DNA from: a virus
Reading direction: 5' to 3' (one strand)
Length of the DNA: 39,732 nt
Virus record (IMG/VR): IMGVR_UViG_3300042090_000562
Coordinates: 1 to 39,732 of that record
In this document: piece after piece, positions 1 to 39,732 of the stretch
Layout: each line of letters starts with the position of its first letter
Numbering within the stretch: position 1 is the first letter of the stretch
The notes under the pieces: generated by a model
Database searches by the model: none
What the model saw: only the letters and a program-made list of their open reading frames with translations
Told to the model about the DNA's origin: nothing
Program-made: the position numbers and the translations under genes

Positions 1-97
1 TTTCCTGCAACAGGAGGGTTGGATTAATGATGGCCCCAGGACCTAGGAGCAAGGTTGCGTCCTTGTTAATCATCCCAGTGGGCAGTTGCTGGGTCAT
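1..97. repeat. Terminal direct repeat (circular contig overlap), left copy
   Basis: The first 97 bases are identical to the last 97 (39636-39732). The overlap lies inside purZ, and reading across the join gives one uninterrupted 360-codon frame, so this is an assembly overlap of a circular or circularly permuted molecule. It is not a gene-bounded physical terminal repeat. A headful-packaged P22-like genome would assemble this way. The true unique length is 39,635 bp. Confidence 0.93.
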
Positions 98-253
98 CAC
101 CGATTCCCCCTGTGGGAAGATGAAGGTATGCCCCGCATTAGGTCCGAAATTGCAGACCACCACATCCGGGTTCCGGTCGATGGCCAACTTTCCAGCCAAC
201 AGGCCCTTACCACAGGAACCCCATTGCCCATCAACGATCATGTAAGCTTTCAT
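1..253 (-). CDS. purZ: PurZ, N-terminal part (gene continues across the circular join at 39635)
   Basis: N-terminal 84 residues of N6-succino-2-amino-2'-deoxyadenylate synthase, the PurA homologue that condenses dGMP with aspartate using (d)ATP or GTP to start 2-aminoadenine (Z) synthesis. The start is ATG at 253-251, which overlaps the polymerase stop as ATGA and is preceded by GGGAGG seven bases upstream. The phosphate-binding loop reads GQWGSCGKG (residues 9-17). The Asp used as general base in ordinary PurA (Asp13 of E. coli) is Ser13 here, a recognised mark of PurZ. His42 in PNAGHT matches the PurA catalytic His41. The full protein is 360 aa, close to known PurZ proteins. The rest is annotated at 38806-39732. 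Function comes from family knowledge; the motif and the join are read directly. Confidence 0.95.
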   Translation of the reverse strand, partial: MKAYMIVDGQWGSCGKGLLAGKLAIDRNPDVVVCNFGPNAGHTFIFPQGESVMTQQLPTGMINKDATLLLGPGAIINPTLLLQE

Positions 254-2079
254 TTGCTGGCCTCCCACCAGTTTGGCCCGATCCCGCAGGATGAGCGAAT
301 AGGAACATCGAACTTGATAGGGCAGTTCACCCCATCGAAACACTCATACACTCGACCGATTTCTTCGGTTAAGCGTTCACTTCCTGGAGCCATTGACATA
401 TCCAGTTCATCATGAACATTGAGGATAAGCCTAGACCCTGATCCACGGAGAACTTCGTAGACTTCCACGATTTTTTGTTTAAGAGCATCTGCTGCTGAAC
501 CCTGGAAGATGAGCCCACCCGCTTTATGAGTGAACTGACCATGCGGGAATCGGATTCTCCTTCCCAACACTGTGCGGACGTAACCGCGAGACTTCGCAAT
601 GGAAGAGGCCCGAGACAATAGAGCCTTGATCCCCGGCACGTTTTCGTGATATTGCGCAAACACCTCACGAGCTTCCTCTCCTGGCTCATAATACTCTTTC
701 CCGGCACGTCCAATGGAAAGGGTATAAGGGAGACCCATTTCGTGGGCCAGTTTCCCCTCACCCATACCAAACACCAAGCCCAAGTTAATTTGTTTTGCAT
801 TACCTTTAACCTCCGGTTTGTCCCCCGCTTTACGGGGCAATCCTGTCATGTCCGCGACCATTTGATGAAAATCCATATCCGGATTCTCCCGATACATTGA
901 CAGGATCTTGGGATTCGCAGCATAATGAGCGAATACCCTAAAGTCCATTTGCGACCAATCCCGACACGCCCAATCCTGTCCTTCATCCGGAAGGAACACC
1001 GATCGAACAATCGTGGCAATCTCATGATCACGCTTAGGGATCTGTTGCAAGGCCGGAGAGTTGCAGGATAACCTGCCCGTTCCTGTGCCCAATTCATTGT
1101 CACCCTTCGTTTGATTGAAATTAGCATGAATTACCCCATTGTGGTGACCCCCCAGAACATGGCCCTTGAGGAACGTGTCCCGCGTCTTGGCCTTCTTCCT
1201 CAAATCAAGAATGAGTTTCGCGGTGGGGTCTGACATCCGTTGCAAACAGTCCGCGTCAATCGAAGGTTTGCCTGCTTCTGTAGTCTCGCATACTGTTCCG
1301 TCTCGGAGGGTCCATAGTTTAGATCCCTCATCGTATTGTGGATTGAATAGCGTGTGGATGGACTTTGAAGGGTTCGGGTTGATGGGAAACCCGGCCATCC
1401 GATCAAGTTTCTCCTGTTTAACGCGCATAAGATTCGTGATCTCAGCCATGGCACGTTCAGCCGCTGGCAAATCCACGCGCACTCCATATTGCTCCATTTC
1501 CACAAGTACAGGGAGCAATCGCATTTCGAGATCGGACACAATAAGAAGATCCTGCTCCGCCATCTCACGAATTTCCCATTGGTAGAGCGCAAGCGTCGTC
1601 TCGGTATCTTGGATTGCGTATTGCGACAGGAGGGACCAGGGCGCTTCGTGGAAATGGGGGGCTTGTCCTTTAGCTGTGGCAGCCCCCCCAAACATCTCAG
1701 CCAGTTTACCATAGATTGAAACATCTTTGCCCTTTCCACAGAACTGGAGCCCTAAGTTGTCGAGCGAGTAACTAAGAAGGTGCTCATCAATAAGTGCCGC
1801 CCCCACCATCGTACAGAATACGGGTCCCTTATAATGAATCCCGCTTTCTCTGAGGAAGTGAAGATCGAACTTGAGGTTGTGATTGACCAATAATCGGCAT
1901 TCGGGAAGATTATCCTGCGCCCAGTTGAGCTGATTTCGATCGCGTAAGTCCACACAAAATGATTCTCCTTCCGAGGTTGTGATCGCGACAGCGAACGCTT
2001 TATGCTTCCACCATTCCAGTCCGGTGGTTTCGCAATCCGCCACCACGAACGGATATTGACTAAGATCGGGAAAATCCAT
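250..2079 (-). CDS. dpoZ: Family A DNA polymerase with 3'-5' exonuclease (DpoZ)
   Basis: 609 aa; replicates the phage genome. The N-terminal DnaQ-like proofreading exonuclease is intact: D15 and E17 (DCE), D72 in NHNLKFD, Y154 and D158 (YAIQD). The polymerase domain has TGTGRLS (332-338), motif A with D374 (RDWSQMDFR), an O-helix motif B (residues 425-438) and motif C HDE at 556-558. No 5'-3' nuclease domain is present. In the O-helix the usual Arg-x3-Lys-x3-Phe/Tyr-x3-Tyr-Gly reads K425-x3-K429-x3-L433-x3-F437-G438. Sharing an ATGA overlap with purZ and an operon with datZ and mazZ identifies it as DpoZ, the polymerase type reported to prefer aminoadenine. Its ATG directly follows the helicase TGA, with GGAG upstream. 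Preference for dZTP is inferred from context. Confidence 0.92.
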   Translation of the reverse strand: MDFPDLSQYPFVVADCETTGLEWWKHKAFAVAITTSEGESFCVDLRDRNQLNWAQDNLPECRLLVNHNLKFDLHFLRESGIHYKGPVFCTMVGAALIDEHLLSYSLDNLGLQFCGKGKDVSIYGKLAEMFGGAATAKGQAPHFHEAPWSLLSQYAIQDTETTLALYQWEIREMAEQDLLIVSDLEMRLLPVLVEMEQYGVRVDLPAAERAMAEITNLMRVKQEKLDRMAGFPINPNPSKSIHTLFNPQYDEGSKLWTLRDGTVCETTEAGKPSIDADCLQRMSDPTAKLILDLRKKAKTRDTFLKGHVLGGHHNGVIHANFNQTKGDNELGTGTGRLSCNSPALQQIPKRDHEIATIVRSVFLPDEGQDWACRDWSQMDFRVFAHYAANPKILSMYRENPDMDFHQMVADMTGLPRKAGDKPEVKGNAKQINLGLVFGMGEGKLAHEMGLPYTLSIGRAGKEYYEPGEEAREVFAQYHENVPGIKALLSRASSIAKSRGYVRTVLGRRIRFPHGQFTHKAGGLIFQGSAADALKQKIVEVYEVLRGSGSRLILNVHDELDMSMAPGSERLTEEIGRVYECFDGVNCPIKFDVPIRSSCGIGPNWWEASK

Positions 2080-3429
2080 TCATAACTCCATCGGGTTATC
2101 ACCCTCAATGATCGTTAACTTATGCTTCGCTCGTGTAACTGCAACGTACCAACACCGAAGCTCGTTATCGTCAAAGTTTTCGTAGGTCTTTGATCCCATC
2201 GCATTGTATAGGATCACGTGATCCGCTTCACCCCCCTTAGCTGCATGGATTGTGGATACCCGGAACGTGGGCCTAGATCGCAGATCAACAGAACGAAGGT
2301 ATTCGATCCGGTCCCCAGGCATCGGGATTAGGTGTTCCCACGAGTTTCTGCGAATGCAACTGAAATCGTTGCCCAGGATCTCGGATCGGTAACTGGGGTG
2401 GACAGCCTTCGCAAGGCAGACTTGCTGGGCCTTGCTGATTTCCTCATCCCGCCTTAGTGCTTGGTAAACCCGAACCGCGTTCGCGTATCGGTCATCAAAC
2501 GCCCCACTAAGCCCCGTGATGGAGTACGGTACGTTGTGATGTAGGAGCCATTCCTCGATTTCGGATCGCGACGAATGATTTCGATACAGAACCAGGGTAT
2601 CCGATCCCAGGTCCGGAGCCAAGTAATCAAATGAAGGGTAACGTGTGACGGTTCCATCCTCATCCTTCGGTTTGTAACTCTTCTCAATTCGGTCCCCCAT
2701 TCGTTGTGCAATCCGTTCTGCTATTTCATGAACCGATCGCGGGATACGGTGTGATTGATCCAGGACTCGATAAGGTGCGTTAAATCTTGCCATGCCGTGA
2801 GCATCTGCTCCTGCCCACGTATAGATAGCCTGATCATCATCCCCAGCAATAACAACATTCGGAGTTTTTTCCATAATCTTTTCAACCGCCCTCCATTGGA
2901 GTTCGGAGAGGTCCTGTCCTTCGTCGAGGAACAACCAGTCCAGATCACAATTAACATCCATATCGACCATATGAAGAAGCAAATCATTATAATCAACGTA
3001 TCCATTCTGCTTCTTCCATTTGGTGTAAGTGATGGAGAAATGGCGGTCAACTTCATCTGGCTGCCTGTCTGAACATTGGGCCACCCTAAACTGGTGGGCG
3101 GTGTGGAGTTCGTCCCCAAATGTTAGTTCTCCTGCTTCAATGATTGATTGACCAGTGACCCGATACCCGATGATTTCACTGAACTCTTTAAGCTTCTCGT
3201 GGTCCACAATTTGGGCTCGGGTCGTTCCGGTCAATTCATAGGCAAGGCTGTGTATGGTCCGAACGGTCTTTGAAGTCCTGAGATTTAATCTCCTCAAGGC
3301 CTCTCCTGCAGCATTTTTAGTGAAAGCGAGGAATCCGATCTTGGTCGGGTCCCCAGCCTCAGCCATCATTGCCAGCAGGGTGGAAGTCTTACCAGTTCCG
3401 GGGGGGCCATACACAACCTCGACACTCAC
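2080..3429 (-). CDS. SF1 DNA helicase, UvrD/Rep-like
   Basis: 449 aa ATP-dependent DNA helicase. Motif I GPPGTGKT is at residues 8-15. Further along are LDEGQD (DExx box), AGDDDQAIYTWAGAD (motif III region), a QSHRIP motif IV segment, STIHAAKGGEAD (motif V) and YVAVTRAKHKL (motif VI). The set is complete, so the enzyme should be active. It is shorter than UvrD (about 720 aa), nearer phage Dda-type helicases. The likely start is GTG at 3429, overlapping the upstream stop as GTGA; the ribosome binding site is weak, so coupling from the 74-aa gene is probable. It sits directly upstream of the polymerase and is a candidate replicative or recombination helicase, since no DnaB-type protein is seen. 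Confidence 0.9.
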   Translation of the reverse strand: MSVEVVYGPPGTGKTSTLLAMMAEAGDPTKIGFLAFTKNAAGEALRRLNLRTSKTVRTIHSLAYELTGTTRAQIVDHEKLKEFSEIIGYRVTGQSIIEAGELTFGDELHTAHQFRVAQCSDRQPDEVDRHFSITYTKWKKQNGYVDYNDLLLHMVDMDVNCDLDWLFLDEGQDLSELQWRAVEKIMEKTPNVVIAGDDDQAIYTWAGADAHGMARFNAPYRVLDQSHRIPRSVHEIAERIAQRMGDRIEKSYKPKDEDGTVTRYPSFDYLAPDLGSDTLVLYRNHSSRSEIEEWLLHHNVPYSITGLSGAFDDRYANAVRVYQALRRDEEISKAQQVCLAKAVHPSYRSEILGNDFSCIRRNSWEHLIPMPGDRIEYLRSVDLRSRPTFRVSTIHAAKGGEADHVILYNAMGSKTYENFDDNELRCWYVAVTRAKHKLTIIEGDNPMEL

Positions 3430-3650
3430 AGCTTGCCCGCCAAATACTTCAATCTCGCCAAGAGTCCGGCCAAATCTGCTTTCATTCGGGTGATTTCGTT
3501 CTCGTATTCCTTGACCCCGGTGGCGGCCAGAGATTCCATCTTCGCTTTCAGCGCTTGGTATTCCGCTTCCGCGAAGTGAATCTCTCGAGCGGCGGATCCT
3601 TTAACCCAGGCCGTGATCTTCGATTCTTCCGACTTCAACCAGTTCCACAT
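3426..3650 (-). CDS. Small coiled-coil protein
   Basis: 74 aa, not recognised. After a Trp-rich start (MWNWLKSEE) it is almost entirely charged and alanine/leucine-rich helix with heptad spacing, so a coiled coil is likely. It sits between the SSB-like gene (the SSB stop abuts its ATG) and the helicase (GTGA overlap). A structural or accessory role in the replisome is possible but not shown. Confidence 0.75.
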   Translation of the reverse strand: MWNWLKSEESKITAWVKGSAAREIHFAEAEYQALKAKMESLAATGVKEYENEITRMKADLAGLLARLKYLAGKL

Positions 3651-4390: not shown

Positions 4391-4401
4391 TTCTTCTCCT
4401 G

Positions 4402-5044: not shown

Positions 5045-5335
5045 TTAAACCTCCAGCAAACGAAGGGCATCCGCAATCCGGGATCGCATATCCACTGCTT
5101 TCCGGTTCATGTGGCGGAGAGTTGTTGCGTAAGGGCACAACATAACATCGGGTGCGTTGGGCGTTAGCCCGGATGAGGCGCAGGGGGAAGGCCCATCGGG
5201 CATACTTACCCCACTCAGCCTTTCAATGAGCGTGTTTAGGCCACTTTCAAGAGATTCAAGCGTTTCCCCAAGATCACAAATCCCCTGTGAAATCTGGGTT
5301 TGCCGTGATGCGGTGTTGTTGCCTTGGATGCTCAT
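5045..5335 (-). CDS. Hypothetical protein, 96 aa
   Basis: Not recognised. Start at ATG 5335 because AGGAGGAAGT lies immediately upstream; a longer frame to 5440 lacks a binding site and overlaps the upstream gene. Predicted helical N-terminal half (DLGETLESLESGLNTLIERL) and a central stretch with two cysteines. Lies between the SNF2-side genes and the SSB block. Confidence 0.7.
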   Translation of the reverse strand: MSIQGNNTASRQTQISQGICDLGETLESLESGLNTLIERLSGVSMPDGPSPCASSGLTPNAPDVMLCPYATTLRHMNRKAVDMRSRIADALRLLEV

Positions 5336-5343
5336 ACTTCCTC

Positions 5344-5652
5344 CTATAGGATAATGGTTATTGGTTGATAGACCTTCTTCCTTCGATCCCACTTCAGGAT
5401 CGGAATGGATCGGGTCTGGGTGGAAAGGATAGCGAAACATATGCCAATCAACACTGGGTCACCCAACAACAATAGGCGATCCTGTTTAGGGTCAAACGTG
5501 CGAAGCTGGGTGCGCAGAAAATCCGTGATTTCCGCTCCCGACGAAGTAGATGTAAAAGGGAAATCCATATTACATAGGATCTGGATCTCCCCGAATCGGA
5601 GCGCATCCGCGTAATTATGTCCTGAATCCTCAACTACAAATACCCTGCCCAC
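5344..5652 (-). CDS. Hypothetical protein, 102 aa
   Basis: Not recognised. GTG start at 5652, with AGAGG upstream inside the end of the SNF2 helicase gene (23-base overlap). The protein looks like a small alpha/beta domain (MGRVFVVEDSGHNYADALRFG ... DRLLLLGDPVLIG). The order suggests a helicase accessory, but there is no direct evidence. Confidence 0.65.
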   Translation of the reverse strand: MGRVFVVEDSGHNYADALRFGEIQILCNMDFPFTSTSSGAEITDFLRTQLRTFDPKQDRLLLLGDPVLIGICFAILSTQTRSIPILKWDRRKKVYQPITIIL

Positions 5653-7378
5653 GGGTTGCCTCTCTTACTTCTGCCATGATTGTTTCGGTGTAGCTCTTGC
5701 CACTGTTTAGAGATTTGAGAATCTTGCTGTCGATCCAGGACATGTCGATTAGGAAATCAACGTAGATCACGGATTTGGTTTGCCCGACACGATGAGCACG
5801 ATCTTCAGATTGGATACGATGACGAAGCGCCCAGGAGTTCGAGAAGTAAAGCTCATAGCTGCTAGCTGTAAGAGTGATGCCGATACCCCCGGTCGAGATT
5901 TGTCCCACAAAAAATCGTGTGCCCGGATCAGTTTGGAAACGTCGTCTTGCGTCAGCCCGTTGATCGGTATTTGTCTGGCCACTGAACGTAACAACAGCTG
6001 CATCGCCGTATTCCTTCTTAAGAGCTTCCGTGATGAGATTGACCTCGGGCGTGAATCTTGCCCAAATGATGGCCTTTTCCTCGGGCCGGATCTGATAGAT
6101 GTAAGCGAGGAGGTCCTGGAGCTTGGGATTCGGGCCAGGAAGAGCCTCGGGTCGTGAAGTCTTGCTGTCGGCCAGGGCATCGACTAATTCATCACTTTCT
6201 GCTCCAACATTCTCCGGGTCTATTACAAGATTAGGAGTAATAAACCCACCAGTAAGCTGCTGAAGACGTAAGTCCCTAACAAGGACATTATTATAGCTGA
6301 GCAATACACTATCATCCTCTCGGAGGATCGCACCTGACTTTCGGAGTTCCTCATACATCCTCTTCATTTCTGGTGTTGGGGTTACTTTCCGGATTTGGTA
6401 GATTTTGGGCGGAAGGTCAAGACATTCTGCCTTAGAGATTTGGAAGGTATAGGGGGCAACGAGATCAATGAATTCAGCCTCGTTACAATTGGCTACGATT
6501 TGCTTCCCCTTGAAGCCGCCCTTGATGCAGTAATGATTGGTGAACGAGTAGTAACCGGTACCCAGAATACCCGGATCCAGAAATTCATATTGCGACCAAG
6601 TGTTGTGGATTCCCTTACTGATCGGGGTCCCGGTCCCAATACGCCGTTTAATGGCCAACTTAGCCAGTTTATGACATTTCCGCGTCCGGATCGCGTCGTG
6701 CGAGGCAATGGTGTCAGACTCGTCAACGATAAACACTGACCGGTTGAGGCAGAGAAACTTGTCCAATATTGCATCAGCCCCTCCCTGGGACAAGGATTCG
6801 ATACCCATGATCAGCCATTTGACCTTGCCCTCGTGGGGCTTCATCGAGAATTTCTCTGCTTGAGCCTTGAACCCGGAATCGTAAACATGGACGTCAAACT
6901 TCTCCGAACTGTGGAGCAGGAGTTCGTCTACCCAGTTGGACTTCACAGAATTTGGGCATAGGACCACGGCTGCGGTGATTTCCTTTCGGAGGAATGAGAC
7001 GTTCACATCGTCGATGAAGATTTTGGTCTTCCCAGTCCCTGGGTCCATGAACAGGGCGTAGGCTGCCAGATCTGCCATCCGCAACAGGGGTTCCAACTGT
7101 TGGGACATTGGGGGCTTCCTAAATCTAAAGGCTTCGGGGAGAATCGTATGCTTAAACTTCGGGCCATCGAGTATTGACTGAATTGCAAACTTAGCATCAT
7201 CCGTGAACCCCACTTTCAGCCGGTTGAAGTATGCAACGTTGGATTTCGTGGGGCCTGCGATCCAGAGCTTGCGGGATTTGTCATAACGCCGGTTCGGGAT
7301 CCCCCTTACCAGGGCCAGTTCCTCAAACTCGCAGCCCACGATGAACTTTCCGAGCGAAGGGTCGTAATCAATGATCAT
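5630..7378 (-). CDS. SNF2-family DNA helicase/translocase
   Basis: 582 aa superfamily 2 ATPase. Motif I is DPGTGKT (112-118), motif II is IVDESD, motif III is GTGTPIS, and the C-terminal RecA domain carries FFVGQISTGGIGITL (motif V) and QSEDRAHRVGQ (motif VI, the SNF2-type arginine fingers). An N-terminal segment of about 60 residues (YDPSLGKF ... SRKLWIAG) precedes the ATPase, as in SMARCAL1-like and phage SNF2 proteins. It may remodel forks or strip protein from DNA during replication. The ATG overlaps the 44-aa gene stop as ATGA. Confidence 0.9.
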   Translation of the reverse strand: MIIDYDPSLGKFIVGCEFEELALVRGIPNRRYDKSRKLWIAGPTKSNVAYFNRLKVGFTDDAKFAIQSILDGPKFKHTILPEAFRFRKPPMSQQLEPLLRMADLAAYALFMDPGTGKTKIFIDDVNVSFLRKEITAAVVLCPNSVKSNWVDELLLHSSEKFDVHVYDSGFKAQAEKFSMKPHEGKVKWLIMGIESLSQGGADAILDKFLCLNRSVFIVDESDTIASHDAIRTRKCHKLAKLAIKRRIGTGTPISKGIHNTWSQYEFLDPGILGTGYYSFTNHYCIKGGFKGKQIVANCNEAEFIDLVAPYTFQISKAECLDLPPKIYQIRKVTPTPEMKRMYEELRKSGAILREDDSVLLSYNNVLVRDLRLQQLTGGFITPNLVIDPENVGAESDELVDALADSKTSRPEALPGPNPKLQDLLAYIYQIRPEEKAIIWARFTPEVNLITEALKKEYGDAAVVTFSGQTNTDQRADARRRFQTDPGTRFFVGQISTGGIGITLTASSYELYFSNSWALRHRIQSEDRAHRVGQTKSVIYVDFLIDMSWIDSKILKSLNSGKSYTETIMAEVREATRGQGICS

Positions 7379-7509
7379 AGGCCAATCTCACTGAGCCAAA
7401 TATCGGCAAACCCGAAATAAAAAGCCATGCCGCGATCATACGCAGCCAACCATGCAAGATGCCGCAACACATCATTGAATCGGGAATACTTGATATGAAG
7501 GCGATTCAT
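7375..7509 (-). CDS. Small protein, 44 aa
   Basis: Not recognised. It exactly fills the gap between two genes with ATGA overlaps at both ends (7509-7506 and 7378-7375), which is strong evidence that it is translated. AAAGGA lies about nine bases upstream. The sequence is aromatic-rich (RHLAWLAAYDRGMAFYFGF) and amphipathic. Confidence 0.65.
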   Translation of the reverse strand: MNRLHIKYSRFNDVLRHLAWLAAYDRGMAFYFGFADIWLSEIGL

Positions 7510-7865
7510 TTGAGGAGATCCTTTAAAGAAGAGAATCTAACTGGAACCCCTGGGAAGGTGTTCTGGTTATCGGGCCAGGGTAGTAGTTCCACAACCCGGT
7601 GCCCTCTTTTCTGGCGCTCGAACCAATTCTTAATTTCTTCTGCAGACTGCCGTTGGCCATTCCCCAGGAAATTAATTATCATCTGGCGCAGACCAATGTG
7701 GTTATATTCTACATTGACCCACCAATCAAGCCGGTAACAATTTGCATCCAATTGCAAATTGTAGTAAGGCCCTACAACTCGAATTTCCCTGTTTCTATTT
7801 TTTGAGGGGATAAAAATGTCGTGGTAAAGACCATCACCCCCTTTATGGAGGGTTGTGGTGTTCAT
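7506..7865 (-). CDS. Hypothetical protein, 119 aa
   Basis: Not recognised. Contains many aromatic residues (GPYYNLQLDANCYRLDWWVN) and a basic region near residue 85. ATGA overlap with the upstream gene, and ATGA overlap with the downstream 44-aa gene, place it in the coupled replication operon. Confidence 0.72.
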   Translation of the reverse strand: MNTTTLHKGGDGLYHDIFIPSKNRNREIRVVGPYYNLQLDANCYRLDWWVNVEYNHIGLRQMIINFLGNGQRQSAEEIKNWFERQKRGHRVVELLPWPDNQNTFPGVPVRFSSLKDLLK

Positions 7866-8125
7866 CGCATCATCCCCAATCCTAGGACCCGGATCAACGT
7901 ATCCCGATCCAGCCGACAGTAATCTACCCCGTTTGGGGATTTACAATGTACTAGATCCTGGGGTTGCCAGAAGTAACTTTCGATACGTGCAAGACAATCC
8001 TTGCGGGTTTCAAGGCGGGTTCTGGCGGCAAGCTTTTCCATGTCGAGCCCACCGGGGGTAATTTCGGGATTGGGGGCAGTAACAGTAGGTTTAAAAGCAA
8101 GAAGATCATCTTTGTCCTCCCTCAT
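7862..8125 (-). CDS. Hypothetical protein, 87 aa
   Basis: Not recognised. Start set at ATG 8125, which has AGGAGGTCAAATC upstream and overlaps the preceding stop as ATGA; an earlier ATG at 8161 has no site. It carries two well-spaced Cys/Trp blocks (KDCLARIESYFWQPQDLVHC) and a basic/acidic C-terminus. Confidence 0.7.
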   Translation of the reverse strand: MREDKDDLLAFKPTVTAPNPEITPGGLDMEKLAARTRLETRKDCLARIESYFWQPQDLVHCKSPNGVDYCRLDRDTLIRVLGLGMMR

Positions 8126-8349
8126 GATTTGACCTCCTGGACCACCCCATTGTCCAACCACCTTCGGGGCAACGTCATCCTCGTATCTGAAATCTCGGGG
8201 CTGGTAAGGACAGCCCTGGTATCGTTACACCATGGACATTGCTGGAACTCCAGGAGCCGTGTGAATGGGTGCGCCTTATCGGGTGCCAGCCATTCTGCAT
8301 GGATCGTCGGCCACTTGCAGCCCCCTGAAAAATAGCATATTACTCGCAT
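8122..8349 (-). CDS. Small Cys-containing protein, possible zinc finger, 75 aa
   Basis: Start at ATG 8349 (GGGAGGTCCC upstream). Residues include a C-x6-C pair in CYFSGGCKW and a CPWC knuckle later on, a pattern that suggests zinc binding, although the spacing is loose. It ends with an ATGA overlap. Function unknown. Confidence 0.68.
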   Translation of the reverse strand: MRVICYFSGGCKWPTIHAEWLAPDKAHPFTRLLEFQQCPWCNDTRAVLTSPEISDTRMTLPRRWLDNGVVQEVKS

Positions 8350-8624
8350 GGGACCTCCCATTGGTAGTTGCAACCCCTGCAGACAAACTTAATCCTCTCG
8401 GGGATGGGTTCCTCGACCCGAAACTCTTCAATCTTCCTGTGACCTCTGCAAATAATGGTGGCTTCCTCAGTTGTCAAAAGGGCTTTAATTTGGGTCCCAG
8501 GCTTCACAATGGATGGATGGGAATATCGAGATTCCTGTTTGAGATACTCCCGTTTGTGCATGAACTCGTTCCCGTTCTCACCTAGCCCACACTTAGGGCA
8601 TTGATATAAGACGACCTTTAACAT
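8340..8624 (-). CDS. Zinc-ribbon protein, 94 aa
   Basis: Two CxxC knuckles, CPKC near residue 9 and CRGC near residue 83, frame a beta-rich core, and a further Cys-x3-His (CRGHRK) lies between. The arrangement resembles a zinc ribbon. It lies directly after the primase gene (shared base at 8624) and may be a primase or transcription accessory factor. Its biochemical role is not known. Confidence 0.72.
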   Translation of the reverse strand: MLKVVLYQCPKCGLGENGNEFMHKREYLKQESRYSHPSIVKPGTQIKALLTTEEATIICRGHRKIEEFRVEEPIPERIKFVCRGCNYQWEVPCE

Positions 8625-10207
8625 CAGAACCTCTCTTTCATTTCAGGGACTTCGAATCGGATATCGTTGCTTTCAAATGGAACGCCCCATACCTGAAGGA
8701 TGTTATGCCCCACTCTAAGTTTATCATGAATGCAGCCACACTTTCGCAATATTGACCAAAGCTCGGCACCCTTAAATTCTTCGGCGCGCTTTCTTTTAAG
8801 CATTTGGATGAAGTCAACCCCACGGAAATAAACGAATAACTCACCGGTGTCGGAATCTTTTGCAACAACCGGTATCCCCCGTAACAGATCCTCCTTCCTC
8901 CCGAACCTGGGCTGCCCACTGTCGTCCAACCGTTCGACGGGCCGGACGAATTCCATCAAGAGTGATCCGATGATTCCACCCTTGGAAGCATCGTCTGGTG
9001 CAGAAACCTCAGTGCGCTGTTCATTCTTCACCCGCATCAGAACCAGCCAATCTTCGGACTTCATGGGGGGTGCGATGATCCCGATCTTTTCCAGCATGGT
9101 CTTGCGCACTGACCGGAAATCCATCAGCTGTTCAGTTGTGAGTTCGAGATGTAATCCGTTAACTTCGAGATCCCACCTGGGCGGGTCGGACAATACCTTT
9201 TTAAGCCCCCCAAACACAGCAGAATCATAAGCTTTTGAAGGTCCCGCTTCTCCAACTCCGAATCGCCTTGTGACGCAAACTTCTCGATTGCACATATCAC
9301 ACAAGGGGGTTTCGTTGCAACGGTATTGATAATTCCCCTTGCCCACAGACTTCGCAATCGTAGCGACTTCGCCCTTTGCCAATGGCTTTGGCACAAGGGA
9401 ACTGTCATAGTTAATGGCGAAGAGTCTTTCATCTAAATCCTCCACCCCGGCCTTTTTCAAGTACGTGGCAATTGTAAATAGGCCCATGTTCCTGGATCCG
9501 ATTGGGACCCCTTCAGTCAGCATCCGCTCCACGCAAGGTGGCGCTTCCGAATAGTCCGTCAGGGAATCGTAACACTGGGTCCGGGATGCCCGTTTGAGTT
9601 CTGCCAGGTCGATGAACTCTTCCAAGGTAAGTTGCCGGTTGCTGAAATAAGCAAACCGTATAGTCTCCCTGGCGTTAAAGTATGGAAGATTGACCCAGGA
9701 TCCAATCTGATCTTTCGACAACCGCTTTTGTTTTGGAAAAATCTCCACAAGAGCAGCCTGCAATACCGTTCCCGATGATTGAGACTTAACAACGGTGACC
9801 GCAGTAAGCTTTGCAGCCCAGCCCTGCAGTATTTTCTGCAATTGAACGGCTGGAATCGGTTGCTGCAGAAAAACGTAACAATGCGCCCCTTTAGACTTCG
9901 ATTGACAGACAACCAGAGGAAGGCCGATTTCCTCAACCTTGAGGGCCAGGGCCGGTATGTCGATAAACCAATCTTCTTCATGTGCATCAACATCGATCAC
10001 CCCCCACCAGGACATGTGTTGTTCATCGATTGGTACAATTCCTAGGCCCGTGGACCCCTCCAAATGGGATAACCAATGAGCCTCGGTGATCGTCTCTTTG
10101 GTTGTCTCCATGCTGGAATTGTGGGGATGGAATAAGCCCCGCCGGTTGAGGGGGCTCTTGAACAGGGCCATCAAGGCCGTAACTTGCTCGGACTTTGACC
10201 TAACCAT
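8624..10207 (-). CDS. AEP-superfamily DNA primase (PrimPol-like)
   Basis: 527 aa. The N-terminal catalytic domain shows the archaeo-eukaryotic primase pattern: metal-binding D72 and D74 (VIDVDAHEED), the S-x-G-x-H nucleotide motif SKSKGAHCY (H109), and VEIFPKQ...WVNLPYF (154-176), a block I associate with TOTE-conflict/phage AEP primases. A four-Cys cluster (C297, C303, C306, C311) follows the catalytic and linker regions and could bind zinc or Fe-S. The C-terminal 200 residues are unassigned. It should make primers for the leading and lagging strands and might also polymerise. The ATG overlaps the pentapeptide gene stop by eight bases. A primase of the same superfamily occurs in the Z-genome cyanophage S-2L, but without DpoZ. 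Confidence 0.85.
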   Translation of the reverse strand: MVRSKSEQVTALMALFKSPLNRRGLFHPHNSSMETTKETITEAHWLSHLEGSTGLGIVPIDEQHMSWWGVIDVDAHEEDWFIDIPALALKVEEIGLPLVVCQSKSKGAHCYVFLQQPIPAVQLQKILQGWAAKLTAVTVVKSQSSGTVLQAALVEIFPKQKRLSKDQIGSWVNLPYFNARETIRFAYFSNRQLTLEEFIDLAELKRASRTQCYDSLTDYSEAPPCVERMLTEGVPIGSRNMGLFTIATYLKKAGVEDLDERLFAINYDSSLVPKPLAKGEVATIAKSVGKGNYQYRCNETPLCDMCNREVCVTRRFGVGEAGPSKAYDSAVFGGLKKVLSDPPRWDLEVNGLHLELTTEQLMDFRSVRKTMLEKIGIIAPPMKSEDWLVLMRVKNEQRTEVSAPDDASKGGIIGSLLMEFVRPVERLDDSGQPRFGRKEDLLRGIPVVAKDSDTGELFVYFRGVDFIQMLKRKRAEEFKGAELWSILRKCGCIHDKLRVGHNILQVWGVPFESNDIRFEVPEMKERF

Positions 10208-10958
10208 TATAAGCTTCCGCCTCTTCGCGGGTCAGGAAGAAGTGAATCCCATAGGAACACTCGTTCCAACGATCTGGGTCCCAGGAGTCCGGATAAACTC
10301 GGGTGCCTGGGCAATACTCGGTCCGGGGTCCGTGATTCTTCGTATAGCCTTCGCCTTCAAGGACGTCGGCAAACTCAGCCCGACATTTCCGGCCCGTGGC
10401 ATTGGATCGCTGAGCCTCGGCAGGAATTGAGAGCTTAATGATGCCGCCTTCGACCTTCTTCCAGCCAATAATCGTTCCCGCAGGAATGATACTTAATTGG
10501 GCCGCGATCAACGAATTCAGGCCCTTGGCCCCTTGAAGGTAGGCCCCTTCAAGGTCGGCCCCTTGAAGGTTGACCCCTTCAAGGTCGGCCTCTTGAAGGT
10601 AGGCCTCTTGAAGGTAGGCCCCTTCAAGGTGGGCCCCTTCAAGGTTGACCCCACGAAGGTAGGCCCCACGAAGGTAGGCCCCACGAAGGTCGGCCCCTTC
10701 AAGGTCGGCCCCTTCAAGGTCGGCCCCTTGAAGGTAGGCCTCTTCAAGGTCGGCCCCACGAAGGTTGGCCCCACGAAGGTTGGCCCCACGAAGGTTGGCC
10801 CCTTCAAGGTTGGCCCCTTCAAGGTTGGCCCCACGAAGGTAGGCCCCACGAAGGTCGGCCCCTTCAAGGTCGGCCCCACGAAGGTTGGCCCCTTCAAGGT
10901 CGACCCCACGAAGGTTGGTCCCCTCCCTAACTGCTTGAAGGATTTCTTCCCTGTTCAT
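10200..10958 (-). CDS. Pentapeptide-repeat protein with C-terminal DUF5758-like domain
   Basis: 252 aa. Residues 18-145 are uninterrupted A(D/N)LxG / A(Y)LxG pentapeptides, about 25 copies, expected to fold as a right-handed quadrilateral beta-helix. Residues 150-252 form a separate domain (IIGWKKVEGGIIKLSIPAEA ... RKCRAEFADVLEGEG), similar to the DUF5758 domain that follows pentapeptides in other phage proteins. Some pentapeptide proteins mimic DNA and inhibit gyrase, but here the function is unknown. Strong GGAGAAGGA site before ATG 10958. Confidence 0.85.
   Translation of the reverse strand: MNREEILQAVREGTNLRGVDLEGANLRGADLEGADLRGAYLRGANLEGANLEGANLRGANLRGANLRGADLEEAYLQGADLEGADLEGADLRGAYLRGAYLRGVNLEGAHLEGAYLQEAYLQEADLEGVNLQGADLEGAYLQGAKGLNSLIAAQLSIIPAGTIIGWKKVEGGIIKLSIPAEAQRSNATGRKCRAEFADVLEGEGYTKNHGPRTEYCPGTRVYPDSWDPDRWNECSYGIHFFLTREEAEAYNG
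10510..10920. repeat. 15-bp tandem repeats inside the pentapeptide gene
   Basis: About 27 direct copies of a 15-base unit of the form ccccttcaaggtcgg / ccccacgaaggttgg, each encoding one pentapeptide. Because the unit is a multiple of three with few stops, both strands remain open. Copy number can change by slippage. Confidence 0.9.
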
Positions 10959-11118
10959 TCCTTCTCCTCTCTTGTTTAAGTTTCCACCATCTTGCCACTA
11001 AATAGGACCCAGCTTCACCGCGCGTCTCTGGACGATAGCTGTTCGTTACCACGTGATGAACTAACTCTTCCCAGGTCAACTGGTCAACCCAGGCCTTAAC
11101 CTTCGGTGTGAGCTTCAT
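10927..11118 (-). CDS. Small basic protein, 63 aa
   Basis: Not recognised. Start chosen at ATG 11118 (AGGGA upstream); an ATG at 11145 lacks a site. It has a helical N-terminal half (KVKAWVDQLTWEELVHHVV) and a strongly basic tail (WWKLKQERRRNEQGR). It overlaps the pentapeptide start by 32 bases and contains that gene's ribosome binding site. Confidence 0.6.
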   Translation of the reverse strand: MKLTPKVKAWVDQLTWEELVHHVVTNSYRPETRGEAGSYLVARWWKLKQERRRNEQGRNPSSS

Positions 11119-11452
11119 GAGGATTCCCTGCTGATAGTATGGCACGCTGTCCGGCTATAGTGGTGGCACAGGCAGTAGCCACACGGCTCCGGCGTGCCCC
11201 GTCGCTCAGTGACGTATGGTAGACGACCGCCCTGGCCTGGGCGCTGAGCCAGGGCTCCGACTCGAACTCCAGATCCTGGAGGTATTTGAGGCAAAGCTGG
11301 TGCAGGCCATGCTTCTGGGACTTCGACGTATTCTGTTTGTCAGCCAAGGATGCGGCATGCAATAAACGGGTCGCGACAGCCAATGTGTCGGAATCGAGCC
11401 CGTGAAGGAGGGAAACGAAAATCCGGGTGGGATGGGATTCAGGAAGGCTCAT
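11096..11452 (-). CDS. Hypothetical helical protein, 118 aa
   Basis: Not recognised. ATG at 11452 overlaps the upstream stop as ATGA. Predicted mostly helical (LLHGLDSDTLAVATRLLHAASLADKQN), with no metal or nucleotide motif. Part of the P3 operon leading into the replication genes. Confidence 0.65.
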   Translation of the reverse strand: MSLPESHPTRIFVSLLHGLDSDTLAVATRLLHAASLADKQNTSKSQKHGLHQLCLKYLQDLEFESEPWLSAQARAVVYHTSLSDGARRSRVATACATTIAGQRAILSAGNPHEAHTEG

Positions 11453-11604
11453 AACGCACCGCCCTTTACATGGTAGATGCTTGCCTTGATCTCGGGATTC
11501 TGGCACTTCCAAGCTCTCTGACGCTCTTCAGCTTGTTCACGGCTGTCAAGTGCCGCCCACAATCCGATGAAGGGGGTGTAACCCCAGATTATCCAGTATT
11601 CCAT
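11449..11604 (-). CDS. Small protein, 51 aa; first gene after promoter P3
   Basis: Not recognised. ATG at 11604 is preceded by AGAGAGG seven bases upstream, and the stop overlaps the next ATG as ATGA. The sequence (MEYWIIWGYTPFIGLWAALD) is Trp-rich and hydrophobic at the N-terminus, then charged (SREQAEERQRAWKC). It may contact a membrane or another protein. Confidence 0.65.
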   Translation of the reverse strand: MEYWIIWGYTPFIGLWAALDSREQAEERQRAWKCQNPEIKASIYHVKGGAL

Positions 11605-11637
11605 GTGAAACCTCTCTTTGTTGGTATCTTTGGACCT

Positions 11638-11677
11638 AAGCCCCCAGACCCGATACCAGTATACGGTCTGGGGGCTT
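11638..11677. promoter_or_regulatory. Large hairpin overlapping promoter P3
   Basis: Inverted repeat with 13-bp arms (AAGCCCCCAGACC and its complement) around a 14-base loop that contains the -10 box of P3. It could be an operator. On the plus strand it resembles a terminator, but only CTTTCC follows. Confidence 0.7.
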
Positions 11678-11686
11678 TCCTGTCAA
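11658..11686 (-). promoter_or_regulatory. Promoter P3 (sigma70-like)
   Basis: On the minus strand: TTGACA (11686-11681), 17-base spacer, TATACT (11663-11658). It faces the 51-aa gene at 11604 and the whole replication/Z operon. Expected transcript start is about 11651. Confidence 0.8.
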
Positions 11687-11704
11687 GTACGCATAGGTCA
11701 TGCC

Positions 11705-11732
11705 AGTGTGAAACCCTAAGAGATTTCACACT
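11705..11732. promoter_or_regulatory. Palindrome upstream of P3, operator candidate
   Basis: Perfect 9-bp arms AGTGTGAAA / TTTCACACT with a 10-base centre, starting 18 bases upstream of the P3 -35 box. It contains TGTGA/TCACA half-sites like the palindrome upstream of the 13.1-kb promoter. Confidence 0.6.
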
Positions 11733-11735
11733 CTT

Positions 11736-11777
11736 TCAGCAGATCTGAATCTTGATCTTTTCGAGTTCGGTGGCCAT
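11736..11777 (-). CDS. Possible 13-aa micro-ORF
   Basis: ATG 11777 with AGGAG eight bases upstream, encoding MATELEKIKIQIC and then TGA. The site is good, but the peptide is very short and there is no coupling evidence, so this is a weak call. Confidence 0.25.
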   Translation of the reverse strand: MATELEKIKIQIC

Positions 11778-11808
11778 TTCAGGCTCCTAGTAGAAGAATC
11801 GTCTCCAA

Positions 11809-11841
11809 CCCGAAAGCCCCGTTAGGGGCGACTGAATCGGG
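11809..11841 (-). terminator. Intercistronic hairpin, copy 1
   Basis: Inner stem GCCCC-GTTA-GGGGC inside outer arms CCCGA/TCGGG. In the minus-strand RNA it becomes GCCCC-UAAC-GGGGCUUUCGGG, a terminator- or processing-like shape with a short U run. It lies 15 bases after the 82-aa gene and is nearly identical to the element at 12122. Confidence 0.65.
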
Positions 11842-11855
11842 CTTGATATGCAGAC

Positions 11856-12104
11856 TTACTTCGTGGAGATTTTGCAGCGGCGATGGAGGAAGATTTGATC
11901 TTCAACCGTGAACCGAGGATGGGTGGGAAGAAGGTCATCCCAGGAATCCGGGTCCAGAATCTTACTGATTCGAACCTCTCTCCGGGCGTTCTTCCAGGCC
12001 TCCTTTGGGTCCAGAGGCCGGAACATTGCCAGCAAGCGCTTTTCGGCACACTCCAAACAGTCGGCCCAATAGATGTTGTGGCGGCAGGTTTCTCGTGCGT
12101 TCAT
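11856..12104 (-). CDS. Small Cys-rich N-terminus protein, 82 aa
   Basis: Not recognised. Cysteines at CRHNIYWADCLEC (residues 7-19) suggest a metal-binding knuckle. The rest is charged and Trp-containing (LDPKEAWKNARREVRISK). ATG 12104 has GGGAGGAGC upstream. It is the last gene of the 13.1-kb promoter block and is flanked by the two near-identical hairpins. Confidence 0.72.
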   Translation of the reverse strand: MNARETCRHNIYWADCLECAEKRLLAMFRPLDPKEAWKNARREVRISKILDPDSWDDLLPTHPRFTVEDQIFLHRRCKISTK

Positions 12105-12121
12105 GATTTGCTCCTCCCTAG

Positions 12122-12153
12122 CCCGAAAGCCCCGTTAGGGGCAGTAAATCGGG
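12122..12153 (-). terminator. Intercistronic hairpin, copy 2
   Basis: Near-identical to 11809-11841: stem GCCCC-GTTA-GGGGC within CCCGA/TCGGG arms. It ends 17 bases before the start of the 82-aa gene. Partial termination or RNA processing is possible. Confidence 0.65.
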
Positions 12154-14271: not shown

Positions 14272-14568
14272 TCAGGCGGTGTAACCTTCGTTGGCAAACT
14301 TGGCTGCTTCGCGCTTGATCGCTCCACGGATCAGGTTACCGAGGTTCATCCGGACCTGACCAGGGTTCAGGCCCCGATAACGCTCCTGAAGCTCCGGGAG
14401 GCGGTGGAGCAGGAAGCGGACCACGAGCGGATTCGTCCAGATTGCGTCACCGTGGGTGGACGCAAGGGTCGTGCCAACTTCGTCCAGGCCGACGGTGGTC
14501 AGGCGAATGGCGAGCTTGGGCAGGTTCCGGGGCTGGAACGGGCGGCGGGCGGTGGATGAGTCGTTCAT
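14272..14568 (-). CDS. Hypothetical early protein, 98 aa
   Basis: Not recognised. ATG 14568 has AGGAG six bases upstream. Helical and basic towards the C-terminus (RMNLGNLIRGAIKREAAKFAN). It shares its first eight residues (MNDSSTAR) and the DNA behind them with the next upstream gene at 14882, a sign of local duplication or of a shared leader. Confidence 0.7.
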   Translation of the reverse strand: MNDSSTARRPFQPRNLPKLAIRLTTVGLDEVGTTLASTHGDAIWTNPLVVRFLLHRLPELQERYRGLNPGQVRMNLGNLIRGAIKREAAKFANEGYTA

Positions 14569-14602
14569 GAGAAGCTCCTGTGGGTTGGCTTACACCCCGA
14601 AG

Positions 14603-14642: not shown

Positions 14643-14882
14643 TCAGGCTTCGGTGTTGGGGAACACTCGGTCGTAGAGCTGGTCGAGTTCGGCTTGGTTG
14701 TCGCTTCCGTCTTCGGGGCTGAAGGTTCCCCCAGCCCAGGTGTCTGCCGCTTCCTGGAGGTAAGCAGCTAGGTCAAGGAGCAAAAAAGCCGGGAGGTGCT
14801 CGGGGTGAGTGTGGGGACCAAGGACGACGCGGAGTGCGGCAACCAGAGTGTCGTTGGGGCGGGCGGTGGATGAGTCGTTCAT
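14643..14882 (-). CDS. Hypothetical early protein, 79 aa
   Basis: Not recognised. Start at ATG 14882 with GAGGAGG seven bases upstream. The N-terminus MNDSSTAR matches the 98-aa neighbour. The rest is acidic and leucine-rich (LPAFLLLDLAAYLQEAADTW, DNQAELDQLYDRVF). It is the first leftward gene next to the control region. Confidence 0.7.
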   Translation of the reverse strand: MNDSSTARPNDTLVAALRVVLGPHTHPEHLPAFLLLDLAAYLQEAADTWAGGTFSPEDGSDNQAELDQLYDRVFPNTEA

Positions 14883-14895
14883 GAGAGTCCTCCTC

Positions 14896-37075: not shown

Positions 37076-37608
37076 GTGATTGGGCGAGTGTGTCGGGATG
37101 GGTAACCAAATTTGCACCGATGATCGGTACTGCATTGGGTGGACCTCTGGGTGGTGCAGCGGGTGCCCTTTTAGCCTCGGCTCTTGGAACGAAAGACGCG
37201 ACCCCGGAATCAATCCAACAGGCGATTGTCTCTGGCAATTTGACCGGGGACCAGATCCTGGCGCTGAAGAATGCGGAGAATACTTTCGCATTGCAGATGG
37301 CGGACCTGGGGTTCAAGGACACGGAAGCATTGGCTAGTATCGAATTCCAGGACCGAGCTTCAGCACGTGTCCTTGCAGAAACCACACATGATTGGACCCC
37401 ACGGTTATTGGCCTATGGGGTCACAATCGGTTTCTTTGGATTGTTGATCTTCCTGGTCCGTCATGAAGTAGCCCCAGCAAGTCGGGATCTACTCAACATC
37501 ATGATCGGCACTTTGGGGTCGGCCTGGGTTAGCGTCATCACCTACTATTTCGGATCTTCCGCTGGGTCCAGGGAAAAGGACGCTACTATTGGCAAACTAT
37601 CTACTTAA
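37072..37608 (+). CDS. Holin-like membrane protein
   Basis: 178 aa. Three hydrophobic segments: FAPMIGTALGGPLGGAAGA (residues 14-39), LLAYGVTIGFFGLLIFLV (about 110-127) and LLNIMIGTLGSAWVSVITYY (about 137-157). This resembles the three-TM holin family seen in gene transfer agents and phages. It is next to endolysin and its ATG overlaps the endolysin stop as ATGA. Last plus-strand gene; its stop lies inside the 3' end of datZ. Confidence 0.75.
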   Translation: MSDWASVSGWVTKFAPMIGTALGGPLGGAAGALLASALGTKDATPESIQQAIVSGNLTGDQILALKNAENTFALQMADLGFKDTEALASIEFQDRASARVLAETTHDWTPRLLAYGVTIGFFGLLIFLVRHEVAPASRDLLNIMIGTLGSAWVSVITYYFGSSAGSREKDATIGKLST

Positions 37609-38118
37609 CCCCTTGAGAAAGGATAGGACGTCTTTCTCTTCCCGGAAATTTTGAAACGCGAAACTAATCGCGTCCGCCAATAGCCGGTCCTTGATCCCCC
37701 GGTCGAAGCCTTCCTCAGAGTAATAGAGGAAGGCTTCGACCTTATCCGCCAGGATTACGATTTTCTGCGCCAGAGGGGAAATCGCGACATCGAGGTCATC
37801 CCCCCGTTTGCGCCAGAACTCTTGTTCCATTTTAAGAATCAGGTCCGGGTGCCCGAGTTCCGCCAATGCCTTCTTAGTTGGGGTGGGAATATCCCCGTAA
37901 TCAATCTCGGGAATGTCATGGACCAGGGCATATTCTAGGGTTTGAGCCCATTGCTCCGGGGTCGGGGGTTCGTTCAACCGGCTGGCTACTTTACCTGCTA
38001 AAAGGGCAACGGTATAGGAGTGTTCGGCCAAATTCTGCCGTCTGCTGGTTCGAACCATGTGCCAGCGGTAAACATACTGGACAGATTGGATGTCGTCGAG
38101 AGAGAGATACTCGATCAT
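37597..38118 (-). CDS. datZ: DatZ, HD-domain dATP triphosphohydrolase
   Basis: 173 aa (S-2L DatZ is about 175 aa). It removes dATP so that the polymerase is supplied with dZTP instead. HD-fold residues: H33 (AEHSY), H67 and D68 (VHDIPE) and D125 (ILADKVEAF). The N-terminal RWHMVRTSRRQNLAEHS matches YfbR/DatZ-type enzymes. Start ATG 38118 overlaps the mazZ stop as ATGA with GGGGGA upstream. Operon context with purZ, mazZ and dpoZ makes DatZ much likelier than a plain 5'-nucleotidase. Confidence 0.9.
   Translation of the reverse strand: MIEYLSLDDIQSVQYVYRWHMVRTSRRQNLAEHSYTVALLAGKVASRLNEPPTPEQWAQTLEYALVHDIPEIDYGDIPTPTKKALAELGHPDLILKMEQEFWRKRGDDLDVAISPLAQKIVILADKVEAFLYYSEEGFDRGIKDRLLADAISFAFQNFREEKDVLSFLKGLSR
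37615..37638. terminator. Weak hairpin after the convergent stops
   Basis: GAGAAAG / CTTTCTC with a 10-base loop, just after the holin stop and within the datZ 3' end. It could help end rightward transcription. Confidence 0.35.
37701..37741 (+). terminator. Perfect 16-bp hairpin inside datZ, candidate terminator
   Basis: Arms GGTCGAAGCCTTCCTC and its exact complement flank a 9-base loop. It lies about 95 bases past the last rightward gene, on the antisense side of datZ (codons about 126-140), and is followed by CTTATCC. Such a long perfect stem within a coding sequence is unlikely by chance. Confidence 0.6.
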
Positions 38119-38459
38119 GCTTGTTTCCCCCGATAGCACTTCAATTCCGGGTCCCACCCGCCAGCGGTACTGTGCTTCATGAACCCAGTTACCGGATCAA
38201 TACTCCAGGCCCTGGATCGGTTAATCCCCATCTTCTCGATTACGGCCTTCCCAACGTCGATCCCTTTTAAATGCGCTATGTCCAGGATCATGATTACAAG
38301 GTCAGCATATTCATGGGGGTCCGACATTCCGGATTGAATGAACTCTGGGATCTCTTCCAGTACGAGTTTGGCCAAGGAGCCATGGGCTGTTCGGTCCGGA
38401 AACACTTTATCGGCCCATTCTGCGATATCAGCTTGGAGTGAGGTAATTGAGTCATTCAA
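38115..38459 (-). CDS. mazZ: MazZ, MazG-like nucleotide pyrophosphohydrolase
   Basis: 114 aa; expected to turn (d)GTP into (d)GMP, the PurZ substrate. MazG-fold residues: E35, E36 and E39 (LEEIPEF) and E50, D53 (HEYADLVIMILD). The C-terminal AGGWDPELKCYRG ending is a mark of phage DUF550-like MazG proteins. TTG start at 38459 overlaps the Nmad1-like stop as TTGA, with GGGGGA upstream. Confidence 0.88.
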   Translation of the reverse strand: MNDSITSLQADIAEWADKVFPDRTAHGSLAKLVLEEIPEFIQSGMSDPHEYADLVIMILDIAHLKGIDVGKAVIEKMGINRSRAWSIDPVTGFMKHSTAGGWDPELKCYRGKQA

Positions 38460-38809
38460 AACAGATCCCCCGGGACAAAAGGGTCTTTTCGAACTTCTTT
38501 GATCAATCGAACTTCTTTGATCAATGCCTTGAGCAGAACCAAGTAAAGGATAACATCATCAATCCGGCCTTCGATCGGTTCCGAAGATGCGGTTCCCCCA
38601 CTAATGAACTTATTGATGGAGCCCAGGTGCTTGTTGAGGTAAACGCCCAGAACCTGGATCGGGGATGCGAAGCCCAGGATCTTGGCCTGTTCCTTGAAGT
38701 TGGCCAGCCGATCTTCCTTACCGGAATACTCCAGCCCTTTACTCGCTGAAAGTTTGGTCAGATTACCAAACGTGTTGCCCATCAGGGTCTCGAAGTCGCT
38801 GCTGTTCAT
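38456..38809 (-). CDS. Nmad1-like (DUF1599-like) protein inside the Z operon
   Basis: 117 aa from ATG 38809, chosen because it gives an ATGA overlap with purZ and GGAGG seven bases upstream. Blocks SKGLEYSGKEDRLANFK, QVLGVYLNKHLGSINKF and EGRIDDVILYLVLLKALI match my memory of the nucleotide-modification-associated domain 1 pattern (Tyr-x-Gly start, K-H pair, acidic RIxDxxxYLxLL helix). That domain belongs to modified-base phages and is probably an all-alpha NTP-binding protein. Its role between purZ and mazZ is undefined. The end contains a duplicated LIKEVR segment. Confidence 0.72.
   Translation of the reverse strand: MNSSDFETLMGNTFGNLTKLSASKGLEYSGKEDRLANFKEQAKILGFASPIQVLGVYLNKHLGSINKFISGGTASSEPIEGRIDDVILYLVLLKALIKEVRLIKEVRKDPFVPGDLF
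38490..38525. repeat. 18-bp tandem duplication in the Nmad1-like gene
   Basis: Two exact copies of cgaacttctttgatcaat in tandem. The frame is kept, giving LIKEVRLIKEVR near the C-terminus. Probably a recent slippage event. Confidence 0.9.
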
Positions 38810-39732
38810 TTCCATTCCTCCACATTCTGATAGGCGGGGCCGAATCCGACATACTTGATCCGGGATCCGAATTGACGGGCCACATCGTTGCGTTCATAGA
38901 TGAAGTTGGTGGAGAACATGTCCAGGTCCGCAACCTTATGGGCAGACGGGTCCAGATAATTCACGTAGTTGAGGAAGATCTCGACCGGGCCGAAGGTTCG
39001 GAGCATTCGCTGATATTGCGTCTCACTGAACGTGAAAATTCTGCGGACCTTCTTGGTCACGGTGGTCAATTCCTTGACAGCGGTGCCGCCCTTCCCCATC
39101 AGATCGATCGAGAGGTCATCCCAGGAAATTTCCTTCATATCATCGTATACGGGTCCGGAATTTCCGAGTTCGTTCCCCATCGCGTCATACTCGTTCCCGA
39201 CCCGGATCGGGAACGTTCTAATTACGGCGTAGACCCGTTCCAGATCTCGGTAAGATACCGCTACATCGGCCAGGATCTGTTCCGGGACGACGTCCCGGCT
39301 GGTACAGTAGGGGTAGGACGTACCTCGGTTCAGGGAGAGTTCCAGCCCCTGGGCCGACTCGATTTGGACCAGATGCGCTTCCCGGATCACCTGATCATAG
39401 ATTTCTTGGGTGGTCACGTATTCAAAAAGTTCGTTACACTCATCCGCGATCCGGGGCAGCCATTCATTGAACCGGGTAATCTTACGTGATAGCGCAGAAC
39501 CAGTGCCTTTACGGGTCGAGGCATTATGAACGAGGCCCAAGGATTCGCGTTCCTTGTCAGTCTGCGTAACCACCGCCGCCCTGGGATGAATCATAAGGCG
39601 ACCCATGATCCCGAACCGTTCGTTGAAGGATCTGATTTCCTGCAACAGGAGGGTTGGATTAATGATGGCCCCAGGACCTAGGAGCAAGGTTGCGTCCTTG
39701 TTAATCATCCCAGTGGGCAGTTGCTGGGTCAT
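38806..39732 (-). CDS. purZ: PurZ, C-terminal part (joins 1-253)
   Basis: Remainder of PurZ (residues 53-360, with 97 bases duplicated from the other end). PurA-family blocks are visible: a Thr-x-Gly-x-Gly-x-Ala segment STRKGTGSA (124-132), ESAQG (177-181) followed by an RGTSYPYCTS segment matching the PurA substrate loop, PIRVGN (227-232), and TTVTKKVRR (275-283) matching the TTVTGRPRR loop that binds aspartate. Together with the Asp-to-Ser change at residue 13 these support PurZ over a host-like PurA. The stop TGA (38808-38806) overlaps the ATG of the next gene as ATGA. Its neighbours are the polymerase upstream and the Nmad1-like gene, mazZ and datZ downstream, all apparently translationally coupled. 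The expected product is dSMP, which host PurB and kinases would turn into dZTP. Confidence 0.95.
   Translation of the reverse strand: MTQQLPTGMINKDATLLLGPGAIINPTLLLQEIRSFNERFGIMGRLMIHPRAAVVTQTDKERESLGLVHNASTRKGTGSALSRKITRFNEWLPRIADECNELFEYVTTQEIYDQVIREAHLVQIESAQGLELSLNRGTSYPYCTSRDVVPEQILADVAVSYRDLERVYAVIRTFPIRVGNEYDAMGNELGNSGPVYDDMKEISWDDLSIDLMGKGGTAVKELTTVTKKVRRIFTFSETQYQRMLRTFGPVEIFLNYVNYLDPSAHKVADLDMFSTNFIYERNDVARQFGSRIKYVGFGPAYQNVEEWK
39636..39732. repeat. Terminal direct repeat (circular contig overlap), right copy
   Basis: Exact copy of bases 1-97. Removing one copy closes the circle and restores purZ. Confidence 0.93.

Follow-up and report, generated by a model that had tools for sequence, protein, structure and literature searches.

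Does the phage represented by IMG/VR record IMGVR_UViG_3300042090_000562 carry everything required to replace adenine by 2-aminoadenine (Z) in its DNA, and what is the small gene lodged among its Z genes? The window, i.e., the whole stretch of 39,732 nucleotides analyzed here, ends in a terminal direct repeat of 97 bp, positions 1-97 being identical to 39636-39732, so that the contig closes into a circle whose unit length is 39,635 bp. A separate IMG/VR assembly, the contig L002 of 6,931 bp, matches the circularized unit at 100% over its full length and crosses the join, and a second one of 8,612 bp (L206) matches it at 99.99% and does not span the join. The end repeat, the read-through of L002 and the family matches given below confirm that a complete 2-aminoadenine gene set is contiguous on the circle through the join, as a preliminary description of this DNA had proposed. 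The genes are arranged as follows, from the helicase downstream.

2080..3429, minus strand, UvrD-like helicase, directly upstream of dpoZ (PF00580, 7e-22; phrog_1967, 8e-79)
250..2079, minus strand, dpoZ, family A DNA polymerase of the phiVC8-like DpoZ clade, 609 aa (NF038380, 753 bits)
1..253, minus strand, first part of purZ, with the start codon at 253, an ATGA overlap with the dpoZ stop, and Ser13; it runs on through the circular join
38806..39635, minus strand, second part of purZ, 360 aa for the whole protein, unbroken in L002 (39636-39732 repeat 1-97)
38456..38809, minus strand, gene X, probably 117 aa (119 aa from the first ATG, 38815), predicted all-helical, phrog_6802, Nmad1/DUF1599-like predicted fold
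38115..38459, minus strand, mazZ of the MazZ-1 type, 114 aa, TTG start (7ody, 6e-18; PF04447, 4.5e-9)
37597..38118, minus strand, datZ, HD-domain dATP triphosphohydrolase, 173 aa (6zpa, 1.3e-10; phrog_7076, 5.7e-24)

All reading frames of the cluster are open. It contains purZ and datZ with mazZ between them, the arrangement that defines a Z cluster, with gene X as an extra member after purZ and before mazZ. Start and stop codons overlap by 4 nt at dpoZ/purZ (ATGA), X/mazZ (TTGA) and mazZ/datZ (ATGA). The overlaps announced in the preliminary description are right, with the refinement that the ATGA shared by purZ and X requires X to begin at its second ATG (38809). Since the homologues of X also align from this second Met, X is probably 117 residues long. 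The interval originally assigned to the operon, 37597-39732, covers only its distal half.

For all four enzymes, the best solved-structure or curated-model match is a characterized protein of a Z phage. PurZ is closest among solved structures to the enzymes of phiVC8 (6fm1, 4e-52) and S-2L (7odx, 6e-45) in phmmer searches, and it matches phrog_1211 at 5e-63. Its score on the curated model NF038379, 237.8 bits, lies under the cut-off of 300, which the PurZ proteins of S-2L, phiVC8, SH-Ab and Ghobes exceed. Scores below 300 were likewise obtained for the PurZ of the uncultivated phage contig L040 (IMGVR_UViG_3300045051_000520; 241.8), for a cyanobacterial chromosomal homologue (231.9) and for the PurZ of phage OH (241.3), in which a Z cluster is present. 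No close relative of this PurZ was found among annotated phages, the best rows being at about 35 to 40% identity, and megablast with positions 1-12000 of the window did not find a close relative either.

A Ser replaces the catalytic Asp13 of PurA, and all but a few of the residues in contact with dGMP, Asp and ATP are unchanged. In S-2L numbering, the retained residues are S23, N49, A50, G51, H52, T53, S131, T132, R146, Q190, Y203, C204, T205, R240, V241, T273-T276, R280, N305, G335 and P336; the departures are G130A, R244E and F306Y, and Q308 is Asn as in phiVC8. Ser13 alone is not proof of a PurZ, because bacterial chromosomal homologues carry it too. Ser13 PurZ/PurA homologues of this kind (L126-L163) come from both bacterial and archaeal assemblies and span many phyla, with Nostoc, Paenibacillus, Sinorhizobium and Granulicella among the sources; some of them lie on contigs of great length.

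In a phylogeny of 102 rows, built by a quick search with SH-aLRT as the single support measure, the PurZ of the window pairs with that of L040 (SH-aLRT 100). The pair belongs to a 49-row set (SH-aLRT 99) that contains the PurZ of S-2L, phiVC8 and SH-Ab 15497; PurZ0 and E. coli PurA fall outside it. The three experimentally characterized enzymes fall in a nested set of 41 rows (SH-aLRT 99) that excludes the window, so that PurZ activity is here extrapolated along the phylogeny one step beyond the tested enzymes. These data support the view that the protein is a divergent member of the PurZ clade, not of the PurZ0 type, and make it a deep branch outside the group formed by the three characterized enzymes.

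DpoZ scores far above the cut-off of its curated model (753 against 500 bits for NF038380) and is 46 to 49% identical to the DpoZ proteins of Acinetobacter phage SH-Ab 15497 and Klebsiella phage K21lambda1. The exonuclease residues D15, E17 and D72, L433 and F437 of motif B, and G522 of motif 6 are present (window numbering); the exonuclease residues, R440, L455, F459 and G548 (phiVC8 numbering) are shared with phiVC8. The protein also has the three insertion regions of the phiVC8 type, the third being shorter than in phiVC8. By its curated score, by L455, F459 and G548 and by the three insertions, it is a phiVC8-like DpoZ. At the helix-E2 sites R161 and M165 (phiVC8 numbering) it has Ala twice, a combination unique among the 65 DpoZ rows compared. 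The R161A/M165A mutant of phiVC8 DpoZ has reduced exonuclease activity and gains selectivity for Z over A (PMC8599892), and a natural DpoZ with Ala at both positions offers a ready test of that published rise in selectivity.

The best solved structures for MazZ and DatZ are their S-2L counterparts (7ody and 6zpa). MazZ has the MazZ-1 metal ligands E35, E36, E39, E50 and D53 and the residues I56 and D60, described as guanine contacts (PMC8342488), and R83 is also kept. DatZ keeps H33, H67, D68, E71, D125, R18, W19 and K82 (window numbering); in reference numbering, the HD metal ligands, R19, W20 and K81 are retained. K116, reported to bind the gamma-phosphate and to be strictly conserved among close homologues (PMC8065100), is replaced by Ile; a Lys is found there in 64 of 78 DatZ rows and another residue in 14. 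I22, whose side chain keeps the 2-amino group out, is Met, as in 5 of the 78 rows. The initial statement that all diagnostic residues are intact accordingly holds for the catalytic core and fails for DatZ K116 and I22, for DpoZ R161 and M165, and for G130, R244 and F306 of PurZ.

The biochemistry of Z clusters has been published (PMC8342488, PMC8065100, PMC12884076), and the activities of the families are established: MazZ makes (d)GMP, PurZ makes dSMP with ATP or dATP, host enzymes finish dZTP, DatZ removes dATP and DpoZ prefers dZTP. For this phage, the activities and the base composition of the virion DNA are predicted from the genes. MazZ would cut (d)GTP to (d)GMP, PurZ would form dSMP from dGMP and aspartate at the expense of ATP or dATP, and host PurB and kinases would complete dZTP. 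DatZ and PurZ would drain dATP, and DpoZ would place dZTP opposite T, putting 2-aminoadenine instead of adenine into virion DNA. The sequences, their active sites, the gene order and the phylogeny point the same way, and we consider it likely, with a probability of roughly 0.86, that this podovirus possesses a complete Z cluster of the PurZ type and a Z-preferring polymerase, and that its virion DNA should hold 2-aminoadenine for adenine.

It is unlikely that the pathway works only in part and yields DNA of mixed A and Z, an outcome suggested by the divergence of PurZ, with its score under the curated cut-off, and by the DatZ substitutions, Met for I22 and the loss of the phosphate-binding lysine K116. 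The S-2L cluster expressed in E. coli did give partly substituted DNA (PMC8342488). However, DatZ retains its metal ligands as well as R19, W20 and K81, its position 116 varies elsewhere in the family too, the DpoZ signature is intact, and no reading frame is interrupted. Less probable still is that PurZ is in fact a PurA-like enzyme, ordinary or otherwise, and that the operon has a different nucleotide role. On the PurZ model, Ser13 homologues from bacterial chromosomes do come close to it in score, but the window protein prefers that model to the archaeal PurA model (237.8 versus 163.6 bits), whereas a Nostoc homologue shows the reverse (232 versus 270 bits), and such a role would not readily account for the co-encoded DpoZ, MazZ and DatZ.

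The assignment to podoviruses comes from the P22-like head genes (portal, PF16510; coat, PF11651), combined here with a replication module resembling that of the SH-Ab group. SH-Ab 15497 and K21lambda1 share the order helicase, DpoZ, PurZ, MazZ-1, DatZ with the window, and their DpoZ proteins are 48 to 49% identical to it in the alignment, whereas PurZ reaches only about 37%. Unlike in the window, an SSB gene separates DpoZ from PurZ in these two phages, and their MazZ is fused to an N-terminal DUF5664 domain, at the place where the window has the separate gene X. Vibrio phage phiVC8 is likewise a podovirus with a PurZ of the same clade, DatZ and a DpoZ with three insertion regions, but its DpoZ and PurZ genes flank a primase gene, its MazZ is MazZ-2 and not MazZ-1, and X is absent. 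Cyanophage S-2L has purZ, an unfused MazZ-1, datZ and overlapping genes, but it encodes a PrimPol instead of DpoZ and lacks X. The contig L040 is the closest, with helicase, DpoZ, PurZ (57% identical), X, MazZ and DatZ, and differs in that X and MazZ form a single open reading frame. As the Z pathway is already known, another carrier is a modest gain, and the novelty lies in the small gene X.

Gene X matches phrog_6802 only (4e-19), and searches with X or its family against Pfam, NCBIfam and PDB sequences gave nothing useful, leaving it without a Pfam family. Its AlphaFold2 model is a confident helical bundle (pLDDT 90, pTM 0.80). Among the named viral models of BFVD, those nearest to it in structure belong to Nmad1 and DUF1599 proteins (TM 0.64 to 0.66 and E 0.017 and 0.07, at a Foldseek probability of 1.0). 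The Pfam model of that family, PF07659 (Nmad1/DUF1599), had no match at E values up to 1 in 22 X members and none in the genome of the window. The name "Nmad1-like" given to X in the preliminary description is therefore plausible by predicted fold and has no counterpart in the Pfam comparison. With a structural aligner, X matched MazG and dCTPase chains at Z of about 5 over 76 to 80 residues, tied with unrelated helical chains, and this likeness of the model is within helical-bundle noise. Comparison of X by hhalign with DUF5664, MazZ-1, MazZ-2 and DatZ found nothing; the probability for DUF5664 was 0.1%, from small alignments (22 and 8 rows) with which even MazZ-1 against MazZ-2 reached just 1%. 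A similar order of motifs in this comparison (EY/KY, NF/NW, KH/RH, acidic), seen by eye, lacked statistical support. The model of DUF5664 (pLDDT 77) retrieved mostly DUF5664 proteins among the 50 matches listed, with none named Nmad1 among them.

A model made from the single sequence of X found it in Z clusters of other IMG/VR contigs. In a whole-record search, the X profile placed X in 8 of 81 PurZ-bearing contigs; the profile includes rows from seven of these eight, only L098 being new to it. The same profile did not detect X in any of seven reference phages that encode PurZ. Scanning viral contigs by motif yielded 38 X loci; Z genes accompany 17 of these, two of which are the window's own twins. 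In all contigs whose gene order was compared, X and the Z genes share a strand, in L098 provided that this contig is circular. X is located between purZ and mazZ in the window and L040, and 3' of datZ in all the others, at a distance of at most about 0.45 kb except in L099 (1.5 kb). There, an open frame at 10539-11663, 1.5 kb after datZ, joins a sequence resembling D12-class DNA adenine methylases (by eye, from a DPPY motif) to an X domain.

The distribution of X on the PurZ tree requires five changes, at least three of which are forced by supported branches. On the tree of X itself, the Z-linked copies cluster beyond chance (3 changes versus 11 in shuffles) without forming a resolved clade. 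Homologues also occur in phages with no detected purZ (Gordonia phages, RM378 and Mel-JY34 among others), in some of them near a DNA polymerase, and X is not exclusive to Z phages. We found no mention of an Nmad1-like gene in Z clusters in the literature covered, supplementary files and most subscription papers being outside its scope, and the novelty of this association is provisional.

The linkage, the fusion to MazZ and the Nmad1-like predicted fold favor a role of X in the dNTP pool or as a partner of MazZ. X is probably an accessory dNTP-pool protein. Most likely it would support the supply of nucleotides, either as an all-alpha protein that acts on or binds them or by association with MazZ. 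At slightly short of even odds, we tentatively regard it as a previously unrecognized component of 2-aminoadenine clusters, Nmad1-like and acting on nucleotides, that may work with MazZ or its substrates in the place taken by DUF5664 in SH-Ab 15497. By analogy of position only, it would perhaps do the job of that fused domain; the DUF5664 protein of phage Wayne hydrolyzes dATP and dGTP (PMC12884076). Alternatively, X might be a passenger of the replication module with no part in Z metabolism, a somewhat doubtful account that concerns X only and does not conflict with the Z pathway. The homologues in phages with no detected purZ, some close to a DNA polymerase, fit such a passenger, as does the finding that all seven reference Z phages and the majority of PurZ contigs lack X. 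Against this, the PurZ contigs that do carry X have it on the same strand within or adjoining the Z cluster (with the proviso for L098), it is fused to MazZ in L040, and its presence switches at least three times on supported branches of the PurZ tree. Recurrent in Z clusters of uncultivated phages and once joined to MazZ, X is a concrete candidate for a further pool-control protein.

Elsewhere in the genome, no tRNA genes were found. A primase with a TOTE-type archaeo-eukaryotic primase domain (PF22548) and PriCT-1 is encoded at 8624-10207, alongside DpoZ in the same phage. A pentapeptide-repeat protein with DUF5758 is encoded at 10200-10958, in a region where the DNA has a 15-bp periodic repeat (about 10452-10991). 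Two proteins encoded within 3650-5044 belong by Pfam match to families that take their names from phage Pam3 (gp34-like and gp33-like). Identical 29-bp direct repeats are found at 14544-14572 and 14858-14886, 314 bp apart. A 31-bp repeat present in two copies, at 11799-11829 and 12112-12142, contains the inverted repeat GCCCCGTTAGGGGC, and these copies are possibly terminators.
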